Assembly: GCA_022826565.1 (NCBI GenBank)
Contig: JAJDUP010000012.1
Coordinates: 124,001-188,000 of the forward strand
Direction of reading: 5' to 3'
Length of the DNA stretch: 64,000 bases
From: Gemmatimonadota bacterium
GTDB taxonomy: Bacteria > Gemmatimonadota > Gemmatimonadetes > Longimicrobiales > Gaopeijiaceae
Below are positions 36,478-45,289 of the stretch, in pieces. Position 1 is the first letter of the stretch. Every line of letters starts with the position of its first letter. Below the pieces are notes generated by a model. The model searched no databases. It saw nothing but the letters and a program-made list of their open reading frames with translations, and had not been told where the DNA came from. The translations under genes were made by a program, and so were the position numbers.

Positions 36478-36719
36478 TGTCATTCCCTCGTGATTTCAAG
36501 GTTCCGGGGTAAGGTCTCCGAAATACTGTCCGGCTCGCAGAGCGCTGTCAAACGGCTGCCCGAAACACTTTCCCCGGCCTGCTTCGGCGACGCGGAGGGC
36601 TCCCATCCCTGCGCCGCGCGGTTCGAGCAACGGGGAAGAGCGGGTCTGGCACGCCCGCGGTGCGGTGCTATCATCACAACGTCACGCGACGCGACCCCCC
36701 GAGCTCCAGGGCGAAATCC

Positions 36720-37976
36720 ATGAACAATGTGAATCGGCGACATTTTCTGAAGGCCAGTGCGATCGGGCTCTCGGCTCTTCCGGCAGCCCGCGGTCTCGCG
36801 GCTTCAACTCCCGGGGACGGGTCGGCCCCCCTGACCCGCACCCCCCCGCACCGCCTCGACGATCCGCTCGGGGTTCGCGCAAGCTTCCCCGTGACCGAGG
36901 AACTCGCCTATCTCAACACGGCTTCGGTCGGGCCGTTGTCGATCCCCGTGCGCGACGCCCTGCATGCCTACGCCGACGAAAAGATGCGGCGCCGCAACAC
37001 GTCCTCCGGGCGCGAGGCCATCGCGAGCGCCCGTTCCCGCTTCGCCAGGGTCTTCGGCACCGAAGAGGACGAAATCGCGTTCCTGTATGCGACGAGCGGC
37101 GCCGAGAACATCATCGCCAGCGCTCTCGACTGGCGCGCGGGCGACAACGTGGTGGTCGACGAACTCCATTTCGTGACCACCTTCGTCCTGTACCGGGAAC
37201 TCGAGCGCAGGCACGGAATCGCGCTGCGGATCATCCCCTCGCGCGAAGGCGTGGTCTCGGTCGACGACTTCGCCGAACACACCGATGACCGCACCCGCCT
37301 GATCAGCGTGGCCTGGGTGTCGAACCGCAACGGCTTCCGCTACGACCTGCCTCCCCTGGCCGACCTGGCGCACGCGCACGGGGCGTATCTCTACGCCGAC
37401 GCGATCCAGGCGTGGGGGACCTTCCCCACCAACCTGCACGACGAGAAGGTCGACTTCGCCTGCGGCAACGGCTACAAGTGGCTGCACGCGGACTTCGGGT
37501 GCGCGCCCTTCTATGTTCGCGCCGAGCACCTGGAGTGGATGACGGCCGACCGCCATGGCCACAGCCAGGTCGCCGAGACGCTCCCGGGCCACCGCTTCCG
37601 GCTGAAGACGAGCGCCGCAAAGCTCGAGTACGCCAATCCCGCCTATGGTCCGGTCAGCGCCATGGCCGCCGCGCTGGAGTTTCTCGAGGGCGTCGGCCCG
37701 GACCGCATCGCGGCGCATGTGCAGGGGCTGGCCGGCGAGCTGCGCACGGAAGCCGAGGCGCTCGGGATGCGGCTGTTCACGCCGCCAGGCAACCCGTCCG
37801 CAATCGTCAGCTTCCATCACGGCCTCGATCACGAGCGGCTGGCGCTGGCGCTCGAGGGCGAGGGGGTGGCGGTCACCTTCCAGGAGGACGGCGCGCTGTT
37901 GCGGGCAGCGGTGGGGATGTTCAACAACCGGAGTGATGTCGACCGGCTGCTCGGGGTGCTGGCGGGGATGGTCTGA
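36720..37976 (+). CDS. Class V aminotransferase, Tat exported
   Basis: A 418-residue PLP enzyme of the cysteine desulfurase/selenocysteine lyase class. Residues 6-12 are RRHFLKA, a twin-arginine signal. The cofactor Lys is K253 in CGNGYKWLHAD, with YADAIQAWG at 225-233 giving the PLP-binding Asp227. Substrate-binding segments and a GMFNNRSDVDRLL end are normal. Export of a PLP enzyme is uncommon but recurs in this kind of genome. Substrate unknown; reactions of the class include transamination, desulfuration and decarboxylation. The next plus-strand gene starts 105 bases later. Confidence 0.85.
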   Translation: MNNVNRRHFLKASAIGLSALPAARGLAASTPGDGSAPLTRTPPHRLDDPLGVRASFPVTEELAYLNTASVGPLSIPVRDALHAYADEKMRRRNTSSGREAIASARSRFARVFGTEEDEIAFLYATSGAENIIASALDWRAGDNVVVDELHFVTTFVLYRELERRHGIALRIIPSREGVVSVDDFAEHTDDRTRLISVAWVSNRNGFRYDLPPLADLAHAHGAYLYADAIQAWGTFPTNLHDEKVDFACGNGYKWLHADFGCAPFYVRAEHLEWMTADRHGHSQVAETLPGHRFRLKTSAAKLEYANPAYGPVSAMAAALEFLEGVGPDRIAAHVQGLAGELRTEAEALGMRLFTPPGNPSAIVSFHHGLDHERLALALEGEGVAVTFQEDGALLRAAVGMFNNRSDVDRLLGVLAGMV

Positions 37977-38081
37977 ACCGGACCGTCGCCCGGCGGCTGC
38001 AAGTTGCCCGCCGCGGGCGCGCCGTCCAAGATGGGTATCGGTGAAGACGCCTGCCATGTGAGCCTGGGCCGGAGGCGACCT

Positions 38082-39233
38082 GTGGATCGTAGAACGCTGC
38101 TGAAGATCGGCGGAATGAGCCTGATCGGAAGCGGATTGGGAGCGTGCTCGGTACGTTCCTGGTCCACGGACCGGCGCGCCCCGCTGCTGACGCCCGTGCG
38201 GGCGGAGTGGGACCGCATCATCCGCACCACCGTGGGGCTGCGACCGCACCGCCCTGCCGGTTTCCTGCTGCGCGCCGACCGGCTCGACGACACCACGGTG
38301 ATCCACAACTACGGTCACGGCGGGGCGGGCATGTCGATCTCGTGGGGCACGGGGCAGATGGCCGCCGAGATGGCTCTCGATCACCCCAGCCGAACTGCGG
38401 CGGTGATTGGATGCGGGGTCGCGGGGCTCACCTCCGCGCGTGAGCTCCAGCGGCGTGGCTTCGATGTCACCATCTACGCCATGACGGTGCCCCCGAACAC
38501 GACATCCAACATGTCGCTGGCAGGTTTCACTCCAACGTCGGGGCTCGTCGACGACGACTTGCGGACCCCGGCGTGGGACGCGCAATTCCGCGAAGCTGCG
38601 GACATCTCGTACCGCCAGTTGCAGCTCCTGGTGGGGCGGGGATACGGGGTGTCGTGGATCAGGAGCTACGCGCTGAGCGACAACGAGCCCCGCGCCCGGC
38701 AGAGCGAGGAGGAACCGGAGCGCGCTCCGCTGCTTCCGGCGCACCTGCGCACCGGAAGGACACGCCTCGGCCCCGGAGAGCACCCCTTTCCGACCCGCTA
38801 CGCGACCCGGCGCACCCAGCTGCGCATCGAGCCCACGGTCTATCTCGAGGCTCTCGTCGGCGACTTCATCGACTTCGGCGGGAGCATCGTCATTCGCAAG
38901 TTCACCGAGCCGCGAGAGTTGGCGGCGCTGGACGAATCCCTCGTGATCAACTGCACGGGCCTGGGAGCCCGCGACCTCTTCGGAGACACCGATCTGATTC
39001 CCGTGAAGGGGCAGCTGACCGTGCTGGTGCCGCAGCCGGAAGTGGACTACGGAACCTTCGGGGGACCCGGGCCATCCCGGGGCGGACTCGGCATCCACAT
39101 GCAACCCCGGAGCGACGGGATCGTGCTGGGAGGCACCGCCGAACGTGGAGAGTGGTCGCTGGAGCCCGACCCGGAGGCCATCGAGCGTATCGTGACCGGA
39201 CACCAGGCGGTCTTTTCGGCGATGCGTTTCTGA
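38082..39233 (+). CDS. D-amino-acid-oxidase-like FAD enzyme, circularly permuted
   Basis: A 383-residue flavoprotein with a Tat-like start (VDRRTLLKIGG) and a lipobox-like AC near residue 21. GTG 38082 has GGAGG at 38071-38075 upstream. The family's usually C-terminal block, VGLRPHRP at 51-58 and IHNYGHGGAGMSISWG at 74-89, comes first; the dinucleotide-binding motif AAVIGCGVAGLTSARELQRRG follows at 106-126; and the chain stops at a point corresponding to the middle of the usual C-terminal domain. The order is thus rotated relative to canonical D-amino-acid oxidase. Oxidative deamination of D-amino acids is expected if the fold closes normally. A deacylase for N-acyl-D-amino acids lies at 53519. 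Confidence 0.78.
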   Translation: MDRRTLLKIGGMSLIGSGLGACSVRSWSTDRRAPLLTPVRAEWDRIIRTTVGLRPHRPAGFLLRADRLDDTTVIHNYGHGGAGMSISWGTGQMAAEMALDHPSRTAAVIGCGVAGLTSARELQRRGFDVTIYAMTVPPNTTSNMSLAGFTPTSGLVDDDLRTPAWDAQFREAADISYRQLQLLVGRGYGVSWIRSYALSDNEPRARQSEEEPERAPLLPAHLRTGRTRLGPGEHPFPTRYATRRTQLRIEPTVYLEALVGDFIDFGGSIVIRKFTEPRELAALDESLVINCTGLGARDLFGDTDLIPVKGQLTVLVPQPEVDYGTFGGPGPSRGGLGIHMQPRSDGIVLGGTAERGEWSLEPDPEAIERIVTGHQAVFSAMRF

Positions 39234-39595
39234 GCCGGCGGGACATCACGCGGACGCATCCTGCATGCGGCTCAGGCCGAGCTTGATTTCGCAAGCCGCA
39301 GACGCAGTCGGACGATTCGGCCGACCCTGGTGTGGCGTGTGACGTCATCGGGTGGAACGGCCGGCTCACAGACACGATTTCAACGTTTGCGGAAACATGT
39401 TTTCAATGAGATTGCAGACATGATTTCAATGTTCCTGGAGACGAACATTCGGCAAAGGGATGCTGGCGCGAGGGTGCGCGATCGCCACGGCCAGCGTGGG
39501 AGCGCCGCCGTCCGAATGCACTGGGACCTGTTGCACCGACTGCGTGCCGCTCCCGGTGCTCGCGCGGGCTCATCCACGGCTTGCTAACTTCCGGC
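39234..39595. other. 362-base intergenic region with tandem repeats
   Basis: No gene is recognisable between the flavoprotein stop and the GcvT-like gene. The only structured sequence is the three-copy 23-nt repeat at 39372-39440. The rest is ordinary high-GC sequence with no convincing promoter that I can see. Confidence 0.5.
39372..39440. repeat. Three tandem 23-nt degenerate repeats
   Basis: Three units start at 39372, 39395 and 39418, exactly 23 bases apart, each beginning ACACGATTTCAACG, ACATGTTTTCAATG or ACATGATTTCAATG. Copies 2 and 3 and copies 1 and 3 share 17 of 23 positions. They are AT-rich in an otherwise GC-rich region, about 150 bases before the GcvT-like gene. They may be binding sites for a regulator or the residue of a promoter of a lost gene. 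Confidence 0.55.
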
Positions 39596-40789
39596 ATGCT
39601 CCTCGAGACCCCCTTCCACCCCCGTACCGCCCCCCTCTGCCGCAGCCGCCGCTGGCGCAACTGGTCGGGGTACGCCAGCGCGCTCACCTACGAGCCCGGC
39701 CACGAGTACGAGTACTACGCGGTGCGGAGCGGCGCCGGGCTGTTCGACATCTCGCCGCTGCGGAAGTACGAGATCGCGGGCACGGACGCGGCGGCGCTGG
39801 TGGACCGGGTGGTGACGCGCAGTGCGTTCGACTGTCCCGTGGGGATGGTGCTCTACACGCCCTGGTGCGACGAGGCGGGAAAGATGATCGACGACGGGAC
39901 GGTGCAGCGTCTGGGAGCGGACACCTTTCGCGTGACCTCGGCGGATCCGTGTCTGCGCTGGCTCCAGGACTGCGCGCTGGGGATGGACGCCGCCGTGCGC
40001 GACGTCACGCGCGAGCTGGCCGCGCTGGCGCTGCAGGGTCCCACATCGCGGGAGATTCTGGAGCGGGTGGTGACGGGCGCCGACGTTGCCGCGCTGCCTT
40101 TTTTCGGGCTGACCGGGGGGAGCATCGGCGTGGCCCCGGTGACCGTCACGCGCACGGGCTACACGGGGGATCTGGGGTACGAGATCTGGGTGCGCCCCGA
40201 AAATGCGGTGGGGGTCTGGGATGCGCTCGCCGAGGTGGGCCGCGGCTACGGGCTCGCGCCGGCGGGCCTCGACGCGCTCGACGTGGCGCGCATCGAGGCC
40301 GGGCTGCTGCTCAAGGACGTGGACTACGTCTCGACGTGGACGGCACTGATCGAATCGCGCAAGTCGTCGCCGTACGAGGCGGGGCTGGGGTGGGCGGTGC
40401 AGCCGCGGCCGGGGCGGGATTTCGTGGGGAGCCGGGCGCTGGCGCGGGAGGCGGCCGCGCCGTCGGAGTGGGGGTTTGCCGGGCTCGAGGTCGAGTGGCC
40501 GCACATCGAGAAGCGCTTCGCGGCGGTCGGGCTGCCGCCGCTGGTGGCCGGACGCGCGTCGCGCGAGGCGGTCCCGATCTACGCCGGTGGCAAGCAGGTG
40601 GGGTACGTCACCAGCTCCACCTTCTCGCCGATCCTGAAGAAGTACATCGCGCTCGCCACGGTCCGGCGGGAGTTCGCGCGGCCGGGCCATCGCGTCAAGT
40701 TCGAGCTGACGGTGGAGTTCGTGCGTCACACGGTGCCGGCGCGGGTGGTCAGGACACCGTTCTTCGACCCGGTGCGCAAGCGGCGTTGA
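39596..40789 (+). CDS. GcvT-family folate-dependent aminomethyltransferase
   Basis: A 397-residue GcvT-type protein. GLFDISPLRKYEIAGTDA near the N-terminus, ALQGPTSREIL, TRTGYTGDLGYEIWV and the C-terminal VGYVTSSTFSPILKKYIALATV are conserved blocks that bind tetrahydrofolate. Relatives include glycine-cleavage T protein, DMSP demethylase and sarcosine or dimethylglycine dehydrogenase domains. It is first in a four-gene run with two flavoproteins and a DmdA-like gene. ATG 39596 is used; a TTG at 39581 is possible. Confidence 0.82.
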   Translation: MLLETPFHPRTAPLCRSRRWRNWSGYASALTYEPGHEYEYYAVRSGAGLFDISPLRKYEIAGTDAAALVDRVVTRSAFDCPVGMVLYTPWCDEAGKMIDDGTVQRLGADTFRVTSADPCLRWLQDCALGMDAAVRDVTRELAALALQGPTSREILERVVTGADVAALPFFGLTGGSIGVAPVTVTRTGYTGDLGYEIWVRPENAVGVWDALAEVGRGYGLAPAGLDALDVARIEAGLLLKDVDYVSTWTALIESRKSSPYEAGLGWAVQPRPGRDFVGSRALAREAAAPSEWGFAGLEVEWPHIEKRFAAVGLPPLVAGRASREAVPIYAGGKQVGYVTSSTFSPILKKYIALATVRREFARPGHRVKFELTVEFVRHTVPARVVRTPFFDPVRKRR

Positions 40790-40821
40790 AGTCATGAACG
40801 GCTGTCACGCGAGCGCCCGGC

Positions 40822-40839
40822 TTGTGAAACTCTTCACAA
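40822..40839. promoter_or_regulatory. CRP/FNR-like palindrome before the flavoprotein gene
   Basis: TTGTGAAACTCTTCACAA is a perfect palindrome with TGTGA and TCACA half-sites separated by six bases, the spacing bound by CRP/FNR-family regulators. It lies 16 bases before ATG 40856, so binding would block initiation or repress. No CRP-like gene is in this window. Confidence 0.4.
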
Positions 40840-40855
40840 AGAGGCGCTGGTCACG

Positions 40856-42460
40856 ATGACCAGGCGATACGACGTCATCGTCATCGGCGGCGGTCACAAC
40901 GGCCTGGTCCACGCCGCCTACCTCGCGCGCGCCGGCCTCGACGTATGCGTCCTGGAGGCTCGCCCGCTCGTCGGCGGCGCCACGGTCACCGAGGAGATCT
41001 TCCCCGGCTTCAGGTACAGCGTGTTTTCCTACGTCGTCAGCCTGATGCGCCCCGATATCATCCGTGAGCTGGACCTGCCCCGCCACGGGCTGGCCATCCT
41101 GCCGCTCGAGAGCACCCTCACCCCCCTGCCGGACGGCGACCGCCTCTACCGCGACGCCGACCACCACCGCACCTGGCGCGAGATTTCCCGCTTCTCGATC
41201 CGCGACGCCGAGGCCTACGACGACTACGGCCGCTCGCTCTTCTACATGGCGCGGGCCGTGAAGTACCTGCTCGACATCGTCCCCCCCGACCCCGCCAGCC
41301 TCGCTCCCGGCGACATCTCCGGCATGCTCCGCCTGGGGCGCCATTTTCTGGATCTCGAGCCCGACCAGCTCCACCTCCTCGCCAAGCTGATGACCATGAG
41401 CTCGGCCGACTTCCTCGAGGAGTGGTTCGAGACCGACGTGCTGAAAGCCACGCTGTCGGCGAGCGGGATCATCGGCACCTTCCTCGGGCCGCGCTCGCCG
41501 GGGACCGCCTACGTGCTGCTTCACCACTACATGGGCGAGATCGACGGGCACTTCCGGGCGTGGGGCTTCGCGAAGGGCGGCACCGGGGCCGTGGCGCAGG
41601 CGATCGCGTCCGCCGCGCGCGAGGCGGGGGCCGAGATCCGCACGGACGCGCCGGTCGCACGGGTGCTGGTGCAGAACGGGCGGACGACCGGGGTGGCCCT
41701 CGCCAACGGGGACGAACTGCGCGCGAAGGTGGTCTCGTCCAGCCTCGATCCGCACCGCACCTTCCTCGATCTGGTCGCCGACGGTGAACTTCCCGACGAG
41801 GTCGTGCAAGGCATGCGCGGCTACCGCTTCCGCGGCTCCTCCGGCAAGGTGAACCTCGCCCTCGACGCGGCCCCGGACTTCAGCAGCATGCCCGGCCACG
41901 GCCCCCATCTGCGCGGCGCAGTCTCGATCAGCCCCTCGATCGACTACCTGGAACGCGCCTACGACGACGCCAAGTACGGGGATTTCTCGCGCGAACCGTA
42001 CATCGACATCGTCATCCCCTCGGCGATCGATCCGGGGATGGCGCCGCCGGGCAAGCACGTCATGTCGTGCTTCGTCCAGTACGCGCCCTATGAGCTGCGC
42101 GAGGGCACCTGGGACGAGAAGCGCGAGGCTTTCGGCGACACGGTGATCGACACGCTGGCCCGGTACATCCCCAACCTGATGGACATCATCCTGCACAGTC
42201 AGGTGGTCACGCCGCTCGACATCGAGCGCACCACGGGGCTGTCGCAGGGCAACATCTTCCAGGGTGAACTGACGCCGTCGCAGCTGTTCTTCCTGCGGCC
42301 CATCGCGGGTTACGCCAGGTACCGGACGCCGGTGCGAGGATACTACCAGTGCGGGTCGGGGACGCACCCGGGCGGGGGGATCATGGGGGCACCGGGGAAG
42401 CTGGCTGCGGGGGTGGTGATGAAGGATCTGGGTCGGGGGAAGGGGAGGAGGGGGCGGTGA
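40856..42460 (+). CDS. Phytoene-desaturase-like NAD(P)/FAD-dependent oxidoreductase (first copy)
   Basis: A 534-residue flavoprotein. DVIVIGGGHNGLVHAAYLARAGLDV near residues 6-30 is the FAD-binding Rossmann motif and GFAKGGTGAVAQAI is typical of the carotenoid-desaturase-like superfamily. YYQCGSGTHPGGGIMGAPGKLAA at the end binds the flavin pyrophosphate. The function of this branch is usually unknown. It is followed by a paralog at 42457 with GTGA overlap, so the pair arose by duplication and is translationally coupled. Between two folate-dependent methyltransferases, an amine- or sulfide-oxidising role is a reasonable inference. Confidence 0.85.
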   Translation: MTRRYDVIVIGGGHNGLVHAAYLARAGLDVCVLEARPLVGGATVTEEIFPGFRYSVFSYVVSLMRPDIIRELDLPRHGLAILPLESTLTPLPDGDRLYRDADHHRTWREISRFSIRDAEAYDDYGRSLFYMARAVKYLLDIVPPDPASLAPGDISGMLRLGRHFLDLEPDQLHLLAKLMTMSSADFLEEWFETDVLKATLSASGIIGTFLGPRSPGTAYVLLHHYMGEIDGHFRAWGFAKGGTGAVAQAIASAAREAGAEIRTDAPVARVLVQNGRTTGVALANGDELRAKVVSSSLDPHRTFLDLVADGELPDEVVQGMRGYRFRGSSGKVNLALDAAPDFSSMPGHGPHLRGAVSISPSIDYLERAYDDAKYGDFSREPYIDIVIPSAIDPGMAPPGKHVMSCFVQYAPYELREGTWDEKREAFGDTVIDTLARYIPNLMDIILHSQVVTPLDIERTTGLSQGNIFQGELTPSQLFFLRPIAGYARYRTPVRGYYQCGSGTHPGGGIMGAPGKLAAGVVMKDLGRGKGRRGR

Positions 42461-44109
42461 AGAAGTACGACGCGGTCCTCGTCGGCGCCGGCCACAACGC
42501 GCTGGCCACCGCCTGTGTGCTGGCACGAAGGGGATGGAAGGTGCTGGTGCTGGAGCGGCGTGGGGTCGTGGGGGGCGCTGCCGCGACCGAAGAGGTCTTC
42601 CCGGGATGCCGGGTGAACGTGGCCGCTCAGGACGCGGGACTCTTCCGGCGCGACTTTGTCGACGAGTTCGGGTTCGGCGCCAGCGCACCGGGTTGGGTGC
42701 ATCCCCCCGCGGTGGCGACCTCGCTCCTCGGCGGCGGAGACGGGCTGACGCTCTGGCGCGATCCCGCCGCCACCCAGGGCGAGATCGCCCGCCACAGCCG
42801 GGCCGACGCGAACCGCTTCCCCGAATGGGCCGACTACCTCGACGCGATGGCGCGCATCCTGCGAGTCGGCCTCGACCACCCCGCTCCGGCCCTGCACGAC
42901 TTCACAAGGCGGGAACGCCTCCGCCTGCTGCGCCCCCTCGCGCAGGCGGCCCGGCTCGGCAGGCGCCGCGTGGTCGAACTGCTGCGCGTCCTCCCCCTCC
43001 CCGCCCGCGACCTCCTCGACGACTGGTTCGCCGGCGACGCGCTGAAGGGCATGCTCGCCACCACCGCCCTGCCCGGCGCCAGCCACGGCCCCGGCGCCAT
43101 GGGCGGCGCCTTCCGCATGCTGTACCACGCGACCGGCGGCCAGGCACACGGCTTCCGCTCCACCTCCTTCCTGGAAGGCGGCATCGGCGCGCTCTCCGAG
43201 GCTCTCGCCGCGGCGGCGCGGGCTCGCGGGGCCGAAATCCGCACCGGGACCGAGGTCGAGCGCATTCTCGTGGAGGACGGAGCCGCCACCGGGGTACTGC
43301 TCGCCGGCCGCGAGGAGATACCTGCACACTGCGTCGTGTCGGGCGCCGACCCGCGCCGCACCTTCTTCGACCTGGTGGGCGCGCCGCAGCTCGGCCCCGA
43401 GTTCAACCGCAAGGTCGCCAGCATCCAGATGCGCGGTACGACCGCCATTCTGCACCTCCTCCTCGACGACCTTCCGCCGCTCGACGACGCCGAACAGCGC
43501 CTCGCCGGCCACACCCTCGTCGCTCCCTCCCTCGACTACCTCGAACGCGCCAGCGACGCCGCCAAGTACGGCCGCTGCTCGCCCCGCCCGCACCTCGACA
43601 TCGTCATCCCCACCCTGCACGACCCCACCCTCGCCCCGCCCGGCCGCCACATCGCATCGATCCAGATCCGCTACGCCCCCTACCACCTTCGCCCCGCCCC
43701 TGTCCGCGGTCCGCACGCCGGACCATCGCCCCCCGGCGGCGACATCGCGCCGGGCGCCACCCCCCGCGCCGGCGACATCTTCGACGAGTTCCTCGCCCGC
43801 ACCTGGGACACCCTCGACGAGTTCCTCCCCGGCACCCGCGACCGCATTCTCGACCACCGCCTCATCACGCCGCTCGACCTGGAGAGCGAATTCGGGCTGA
43901 CCTGCGGCGACGAATACCATGGCCAGATGGGGCTCGACCAACTCGCCTTCATGCGGCCGGTCGCCGGATGGGCCCGGCATCGGACGCCCGTGGAACGGCT
44001 GTTCCTCTGCGGCGCGGGAACCCATCCAGGCGGCGGCGTCACCTGCATGCCCGGCCGCCTTGCCGCCCGCGAGATTCTGCGCGCCCGCCGCCACCCAGCC
44101 CGCTCATGA
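42457..44109 (+). CDS. Phytoene-desaturase-like NAD(P)/FAD-dependent oxidoreductase (second copy)
   Basis: A 550-residue paralog of the preceding gene starting at GTG 42457. It repeats the FAD motif (DAVLVGAGHNALATACVLARRG), the TSFLEGGIGALSEALA segment and CGAGTHPGGGVTCMPGRLAA at the end. It differs by a proline-rich insertion around residues 409-430 (PVRGPHAGPSPPGG). The partner is just upstream and the DmdA-like gene starts 31 bases after the stop. The two could act as a heterodimer. Substrate is unknown. Confidence 0.85.
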   Translation: MKKYDAVLVGAGHNALATACVLARRGWKVLVLERRGVVGGAAATEEVFPGCRVNVAAQDAGLFRRDFVDEFGFGASAPGWVHPPAVATSLLGGGDGLTLWRDPAATQGEIARHSRADANRFPEWADYLDAMARILRVGLDHPAPALHDFTRRERLRLLRPLAQAARLGRRRVVELLRVLPLPARDLLDDWFAGDALKGMLATTALPGASHGPGAMGGAFRMLYHATGGQAHGFRSTSFLEGGIGALSEALAAAARARGAEIRTGTEVERILVEDGAATGVLLAGREEIPAHCVVSGADPRRTFFDLVGAPQLGPEFNRKVASIQMRGTTAILHLLLDDLPPLDDAEQRLAGHTLVAPSLDYLERASDAAKYGRCSPRPHLDIVIPTLHDPTLAPPGRHIASIQIRYAPYHLRPAPVRGPHAGPSPPGGDIAPGATPRAGDIFDEFLARTWDTLDEFLPGTRDRILDHRLITPLDLESEFGLTCGDEYHGQMGLDQLAFMRPVAGWARHRTPVERLFLCGAGTHPGGGVTCMPGRLAAREILRARRHPARS

Positions 44110-44140
44110 AACGCATCCACCTCCACCCCGGAGACACCCG

Positions 44141-45289
44141 ATGACCCAGACCTTCGACATGGCCCTCATCCAGCGCGGCGCCCGCCTCCGCCGTTCACCG
44201 TACTTCGACGCCACCCTGCGCGCCGGCTGCCGGAGCTATACCGTCTACAACCACATGTTCCTCCCCACCCGCTACGACGACCTCCACACCGAATACGAGA
44301 AGCTGCTGACCGGCGTCACGGTCTGGGACGTGAGCGTGGAGCGGCAGGTCGAGATCACCGGGCGGGACGCCTTCGAATTCACCAACCTGCTCACCCCCCG
44401 CGACCTCTCGAAGTGCGCGGTCGGACAGGGGAAGTACGTGCTGATCGGCGCGGACGACGGCGGCATCGTGAACGATCCCGTGCTGTTGCGACTCGGCGAG
44501 AATCACTTCTGGCTCGCCCTCGCGGACAGCGACGTGCTCCTCTACGCGAGGGGCGTAGCGCTCAATTCCGGCCTCGACGTCGAGATCTGCGAGCCGGACG
44601 TGTCGCCCATGCAGGTGCAGGGCCCGAAGTCGAAGGAGGTCGTGCAGCGGCTCTTCGGGGACGATGTCCTGAAGCTGCGCTACTACTGGTTCCTGGAGAC
44701 CGACCTGGACGGCATCCCGGTGGTGGTGACGCGCACCGGGTGGAGCGGCGAGGTCGGCTACGAGATCTACCTGCGCGACGGCAGCCGCGGCGTCGAACTC
44801 TGGGATCGCGTGATGGACGCGGGACGCGACCTGGGCATCACGCCGACGGGGCCGTCGGACATCCGCCGCATCGAAGCGGGGATCCTGAACTACGGCATCG
44901 ACATGACGCTCGACACGAACCCCTATGAGGTGGGGCTGGGGTGGCAGGTCGACCACGGCCAGGAGGGCGACTTCATCGGGCGCGAGGCGCTGGCGCGGAT
45001 CGCCGCGGAGGGGCCGCGGCGGAAGCTGGCCGGCGTCGAGATCGCGGGCGACCCGCTCGACCTGAACATGACCCGGTGGCCGGTGCACCAGGGTGGAAGG
45101 GTGATCGGCTTCGTGAGTTCGGCGGTGTACTCGCCCCGTCTCGACCGGAACATCGGTTACGCCATGGTGCCGTCCGGCGTCGCGGAACTGGGGACGCGGC
45201 TGAGCGTGACGACGGCGGAGGGCGAGCGCGGGGCGGTGGTGGTGCCGCGCCCCTTCGTGGATCCCGACAAGGCGATACCGAAATCGTAA
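44141..45289 (+). CDS. DmdA-like demethylase of the GcvT family
   Basis: A 382-residue protein that I recognise as close to DMSP demethylase (DmdA) in layout. SYTVYNHMFLPTRYDDL, WDVSVERQVEI, RDLSKCAVGQG, LADSDVLLYARG, CEPDVSPMQVQGPKSKEV, TRTGWSGEVGYEIYL and RRIEAGILNYGIDM follow one another as in DmdA and related aminomethyltransferases. DmdA transfers a methyl group from dimethylsulfoniopropionate to tetrahydrofolate. Other substrates (glycine betaine, dimethylglycine) cannot be excluded, so no gene symbol is given. GGAG lies before ATG 44141. Last gene of the four-gene run. Confidence 0.75.
   Translation: MTQTFDMALIQRGARLRRSPYFDATLRAGCRSYTVYNHMFLPTRYDDLHTEYEKLLTGVTVWDVSVERQVEITGRDAFEFTNLLTPRDLSKCAVGQGKYVLIGADDGGIVNDPVLLRLGENHFWLALADSDVLLYARGVALNSGLDVEICEPDVSPMQVQGPKSKEVVQRLFGDDVLKLRYYWFLETDLDGIPVVVTRTGWSGEVGYEIYLRDGSRGVELWDRVMDAGRDLGITPTGPSDIRRIEAGILNYGIDMTLDTNPYEVGLGWQVDHGQEGDFIGREALARIAAEGPRRKLAGVEIAGDPLDLNMTRWPVHQGGRVIGFVSSAVYSPRLDRNIGYAMVPSGVAELGTRLSVTTAEGERGAVVVPRPFVDPDKAIPKS

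Follow-up and report, generated by a model that had tools for sequence, protein, structure and literature searches.

The window analysed here is a 64,000-nucleotide stretch of DNA from a Gemmatimonadota bacterium. At positions 38082-39233 of its forward strand lies a complete gene for a DAO-family flavoprotein, open throughout its reading frame, in which the order of the sequence blocks is rotated relative to that of D-amino-acid oxidase (DAAO). The gene and its features are as follows.

38071..38075, + strand: Shine-Dalgarno sequence GGAGG, 6 nt 5' of the GTG, assigned from the sequence
38082..39233, + strand: complete gene of the permuted flavoprotein, with a GTG start and 383 aa; relatives share the start site
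38082..38147, + strand: predicted Tat signal peptide with lipobox, residues 1-22 (DRRTLLKIGG...GLGAC), conserved in the family
38148..38207, + strand: residues 23-42, a tether of variable length and sequence that links Cys22, the putative lipid anchor, to the fold
38208..38378, + strand: N-terminal block, residues 43-99, corresponding to the canonical C-terminus (RPHRP strand, NYGHGG, last helix)
38241..38243, + strand: Arg54, equivalent to the carboxylate-binding Arg283 of human DAAO and Arg278 of DASPO by alignment to 8hy5
38307..38324, + strand: NYGHGG motif, residues 76-81, identified by its conservation in the family
38379..38390, + strand: junction of the old termini, a 4-residue linker (residues 100-103) recognized from linker length in relatives
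38391..39230, + strand: body, residues 104-383, corresponding to canonical residues 1 to about 269 (FAD-binding Rossmann start and substrate domain)
38409..38426, + strand: GxGxxG FAD-binding motif GCGVAG, residues 110-115, with invariant glycines
39096..39098, + strand: His339, at the position of the carboxylate-binding Tyr228 of human DAAO

A class-V aminotransferase gene (36714-37976, +; Aminotran_5, cysteine-desulfurase-like), which has a Tat-type leader of its own, sits about 105 nt upstream, a pairing that is not conserved in relatives. Further along the same strand (39581-45289, +), a gene for a GcvT-like aminomethyltransferase is followed by two for CrtO-like FAD oxidoreductases and by one for another GcvT-like protein, which comes close to DMSP demethylase (391 bits, with a cut-off of 410 for NF009133). 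This run is kept with the DAO gene in the near relatives L001-L003; the neighborhood of DAO, GcvT-like, two CrtO-like and GcvT-like genes is conserved within the genus only and does not settle the substrate.

A preliminary description of the sequence had placed RPHRP and NYGHGG, at residues 51-81, ahead of GCGVAG at residues 110-115. The motifs do occur in this order, R54-P-H-R57-P58 being followed by N76-YGHGG-81 and then by G110-CGVAG-115. When the protein was searched against PDB sequences with phmmer, the DAAO and DASPO structures among the entries shown matched in two stretches with their order swapped. In the DASPO structure 6rkf, residues 105-371 of the query aligned to residues 14-264 of the chain and residues 47-98 to residues 280-334. 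The swapped match was reproduced by a profile search built with 22 relatives. In a search with the Pfam DAO family (PF01266), 22 of 22 relatives matched. The window protein itself matches PF01266 in two stretches (1.8e-32), the better of which aligns residues 107-378 to positions 3-297 of the 353-position profile.

The completeness of the fold was assessed with a profile of 318 positions built from 12 canonical-order bacterial DAAOs. The body covers profile positions 3-249 (126.9 bits) and the N-terminal block positions 249-313 (54.0 bits), so that the profile is covered completely and only once, in rotated order, with nothing absent and nothing doubled. The cut site corresponds to canonical position 249/250 or thereabouts, between the helix that follows the substrate domain and the RPxRP strand. 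About 60 residues of the canonical C-terminus, comprising the strand with the substrate-binding arginine, the NYGHGG flavin loop and the last helix, have been moved to the front, where the 4-residue linker connects them to what was the N-terminus, with its first Rossmann strand and GxGxxG. The linker has this length in 76 of the 93 permuted entries that we collected. In the preliminary description the C-terminus ended where the canonical middle ends; the chain stops near canonical residue 269. Chance similarity of the N-terminal block (residues 43-99) is ruled out by its 57.6 bits against the canonical bacterial DAAO profile, compared with a maximum of 7.3 bits among the 11,490 shuffles reported out of 20,000 made. 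Judged from the sequence, the DAAO fold has undergone a natural circular permutation in this protein, as had been proposed, and the resulting order is common to 75 distinct proteins.

The preliminary description would have been contradicted by a prediction in which the N-terminal block does not pack against the FAD domain; the predictions favor packing. A full-length AlphaFold2 model computed on the family alignment reached a pLDDT of 79.8 and a pTM of 0.80, with pLDDT below 50 up to residue 30. The modeled body (residues 101-380) matches residues 1-264 of the DASPO chain 6rkf with a Z score of 20.5 and an rmsd of 2.7 over 254 aligned residues (VIA-align); since Foldseek and VIA-align follow chain order, this alignment covers residues 101-380 only and does not place the N-terminal block. 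Aligned sequentially in this way, the model has TM-scores of 0.56-0.64. As a control, the body alone was predicted with the same relatives and compared with the full-length model. Its pTM was 0.66, the last 90 or so residues (approximately 292-383) lost about 30 points of pLDDT, from about 85 to about 55-60, and just 7 residues reached a pLDDT of 90 or more, compared with 161 in the whole chain of the full-length model. If the residues preceding the body contributed nothing, the pTM of the full-length model would have a ceiling of about 0.74-0.75 (the share of 282 residues out of 383, with a small background added). As the confidence drops without the block and the full-length pTM exceeds this ceiling, the model puts the block onto the core. 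Within the limits of a prediction, the N-terminal block probably packs against the FAD core.

The block could instead pack on the core of a second subunit, in a domain-swapped dimer. The prediction is of a monomer only, and in most members no more than 4 residues separate the block from the core, both of which leave room for such an exchange. The monomer model nevertheless seats the block confidently on its own core, and only a few residues are needed to bridge the old termini, so we regard a swapped dimer as having a slim chance of being correct.

A search for relatives of the same order, as suggested by the preliminary description, returned 75 distinct permuted proteins from Gemmatimonadota, Acidobacteriota, Alphaproteobacteria and an actinomycete. 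The DAO reading frames across 105 loci comprise 93 permuted entries, representing these 75 proteins, and 12 canonical ones. A related-locus search retrieved 24 co-linear relatives in independent genome records of Gemmatimonadota, Acidobacteriota and one Armatimonadetes MAG; no other permuted copy was found among 101 sampled genomes of the phylum of that MAG. Full-length permuted copies are present in 49 of the 249 Gemmatimonadota genomes sampled, and in 20 of 247 genomes from the phylum of an Acidobacteriota relative, a sample that included two known carriers. The permuted order also occurs in plasmid records of the Alphaproteobacteria Niveispirillum, Kozakia, Bradyrhizobium and Rhizobium, and in the actinomycete Nonomuraea. 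A reciprocal search with canonical DAAOs detected a full-length protein of canonical order in only 4 of the 249 Gemmatimonadota genomes, and all 4 lack the permuted form; in the genome of the window, the permuted copy is the only one.

An assembly error or frameshift is ruled out by full-length relatives of the same order in the 24 independent records and in many more genomes, and given the 93 entries in several phyla and the shuffle test, an artefact of either kind or of chance motif matches has a negligible probability. Since the rearranged version is present in dozens of other bacteria, the permuted order is an old and stable natural rearrangement and not an error. Two disrupted genes were encountered among the relatives. 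In a Mesorhizobium onobrychidis plasmid (L102, 3920-4983), a permuted DAO gene is frameshifted and annotated as two proteins; a natural split enzyme at the junction was considered for this case and rejected, as the break lies inside GxGxxG. A second permuted copy in another relative (G116:C5:158366-159263) is disrupted as well, its pieces matching profile positions 1-152 and 225-388 with a stop reported.

A tree of the sequences brought into the same order by rotation separates 54 permuted from 12 canonical proteins by a single branch (support 100/100). The body alone gives the same split with an SH-aLRT of 99, and the 57-column block alone gives it with a weaker support of 78. The two parts, treed separately, agree in placing the protein among the same DAAO relatives, which supports permutation, and a single origin of the permuted order is consistent with all the data. 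The wider DAO superfamily has the canonical order, from which it follows that the change ran from canonical to permuted.

These trees also bear on the possibility that a C-terminal piece of one DAO gene became attached 5' of a second, C-truncated DAO gene, producing a chimera that merely looks permuted. Joined fragments could yield an identical end product, and none of the 105 loci contained a duplicated form with one copy of the block at each terminus, an intermediate that would reveal the mechanism. Against such a fusion, body and block both group the permuted proteins apart from the canonical ones, and the two parts cover the canonical profile without overlap or gap. We consider a chimera unlikely; moreover, permutation by duplication normally proceeds through just such a fusion, of two close copies of a DAO gene, so that the two readings largely merge.

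With regard to localization, the preliminary description had called the protein exported, and the conserved Tat motif and lipobox support this. The window protein has a twin-arginine motif, a hydrophobic stretch and a lipobox cysteine. These signals are conserved in nearly all members of the family, with the exception of a branch comprising the rhizobial and Nonomuraea proteins, which is devoid of a signal. With simple patterns, a twin-arginine was detected in 72 of 75 permuted proteins, at least one of these matches (L103) falling upstream of the annotated, real start; 56 of the 75 have a lipobox-like match. One family member passes the Pfam TAT_signal model (PF10518) at 2e-4. The protein is probably an exported periplasmic lipoprotein, whose new N-terminus bears a predicted membrane anchor on a tether of about 20 residues. 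Tat export suits proteins that bind FAD before export; the protein would fold with FAD in the cytoplasm, be exported by the Tat system and be lipid-anchored on the periplasmic side.

The residues of the active site are in part strictly conserved. The substrate carboxylate is bound by Arg283 and Tyr228 in human DAAO and by Arg278 and Tyr223 in DASPO (PMC6279847, PMC8260693), and the arginine is described as essential and as conserved among oxidases acting on amino or hydroxy acids (PMC8260693). Its equivalent in the window protein, Arg54, is invariant in all 75 permuted and all 12 canonical proteins. Arg57, GxGxxG, GHG and Trp88 are likewise invariant in the 75 permuted proteins, and the (N)YGHGG flavin loop is invariant or nearly so. 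In contrast, the carboxylate-binding tyrosine is absent from the window protein, which has His339 instead. At this position, histidine is found in 44 and tyrosine in 15 of the 75 permuted proteins, compared with tyrosine in 11 of the 12 canonical ones. The histidine occurs in the clade of the window protein, whereas deeper-branching permuted relatives have tyrosine. The tyrosine persists in members of several other branches of the permuted group, so the permutation most likely came first and the change to histidine later. An equivalent of the lid residue Tyr224 is not present in the window protein in the alignment of the permuted family. Given His339 and the missing lid tyrosine, the substrate profile of a standard D-amino-acid oxidase should not be assumed.

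On the basis of the conserved arginine, the fold and the neighboring genes in other lineages, the enzyme most likely oxidizes an alpha-amino or related carboxylic acid by means of FAD. Arg54 would hold the substrate carboxylate while the alpha-hydrogen is transferred to flavin N5, an alpha-keto or imino acid would be released, and the flavin would be reoxidized by oxygen or, in some relatives, by a c-type cytochrome. A gene for a TPP-dependent decarboxylase-type enzyme lies 3' of the permuted gene in Bradyrhizobium, Rhizobium, Mesorhizobium and Nonomuraea, which fits an alpha-keto acid product. In these rhizobial plasmids and in Nonomuraea (L062, L064, L102, L103), the permuted DAO preceding the decarboxylase-type enzyme has no signal peptide, and the pair could possibly form a two-step pathway from a D-amino acid to an aldehyde. 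A c-type cytochrome gene follows the permuted gene on the same strand in two members of the genus of the window (L093 4092-5369, L098 3865-5316), and a cytochrome c gene (L063 6092-6520) follows it in Kozakia, where serine hydrolases and peptidases are nearby. A cytochrome c neighbor fits a periplasmic dehydrogenase. Neither cytochrome c nor a keto-acid enzyme adjoins the gene in the window.

These observations raise the question of whether the DAO fold was kept while the amino-acid oxidase activity was lost, the protein now being a cytochrome-c-linked periplasmic dehydrogenase acting on another carboxylic acid, such as a hydroxy acid, an N-substituted amino acid or a D-residue derived from peptidoglycan or peptides. 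The replacement of Tyr228 by histidine and the missing lid tyrosine in the window clade, the Tat export signal, the cytochrome c genes in Kozakia, L093 and L098 and the hydrolases and peptidases of Kozakia are all in keeping with such an enzyme. Nevertheless, the carboxylate arginine is retained in every member, the cytochrome neighbors are restricted to few lineages and do not include the window, and the TPP-enzyme neighbors indicate keto-acid production in the clade without signal. We take this alternative seriously, although the odds are somewhat against it. Our preferred reading, to which we assign a probability of about 0.72, is that of a complete, circularly permuted FAD enzyme of the DAAO/DASPO type, exported by the Tat system and lipid-anchored, which oxidizes a small alpha-amino (or alpha-hydroxy or imino) acid. 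More tentatively, an ancient permutation of single origin could have founded a family of periplasmic Tat lipoproteins, in which the change from tyrosine to histidine in the Gemmatimonadota/Acidobacteriota clade gave a new activity linked to cytochrome c or oxygen.

Whole-enzyme natural circular permutations are uncommon, and DAAO is a flavoenzyme familiar from textbooks and used as a biocatalyst in industry. The literature searched contained no description of a permuted DAAO, an absence that is no proof of novelty. The main text of the CIRPIN permutation survey does not mention oxidases or FAD proteins (PMC12667903), and a survey of new DAAOs does not mention permutation (PMC9844085). Beyond what had been noticed initially, the rotated order marks a widespread family, and an active-site tyrosine has been changed to histidine. 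As the canonical and permuted forms are both abundant in nature, with a clear cut site and a short linker of nearly constant length, they allow a direct test of how a Rossmann-type flavoenzyme can tolerate permutation, and of why it does. The new termini also offer a practical means of fusing DAAO-type enzymes to other proteins or anchoring them.

In comparison with known systems, the fold is like that of DASPO (6rkf), human DAAO (2du8) and Rhodotorula DAAO (1c0p), all of PF01266, with Z scores of about 20. The FAD motif, the carboxylate-binding arginine, the RPxRP strand and the NYGHGG flavin loop are shared with DASPO and DAAO, whereas the rotated order, the Tat/lipoprotein signal, the histidine at the position of Tyr228 and the missing lid Tyr224 distinguish the window protein from them. 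Both of its parts align over their whole length with canonical-order bacterial DAAOs (L089, L084, L105), which differ in their order and, in 11 of 12 cases, in having tyrosine at position 228. Glycine oxidase ThiO and the DadA-type D-amino-acid dehydrogenases, the latter membrane-associated, have the same DAO superfamily fold in canonical order. Membership in the ThiO, DadA or MnmC families was rejected, as the scores lie far below the NCBIfam cut-offs (for ThiO, TIGR02352, 44.3 against a curated cut-off of 250.8). Plasmid-borne proteins of rhizobia and Kozakia (WP_304495191.1, WP_070404188.1) are permuted like the window protein; the rhizobial ones differ from it in having no signal peptide and in keeping the tyrosine. 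The annotation of these proteins does not mention the permutation and, as elsewhere where one is available, reads only "FAD-dependent oxidoreductase", so that the order, the export and the change from tyrosine to histidine are easily missed.
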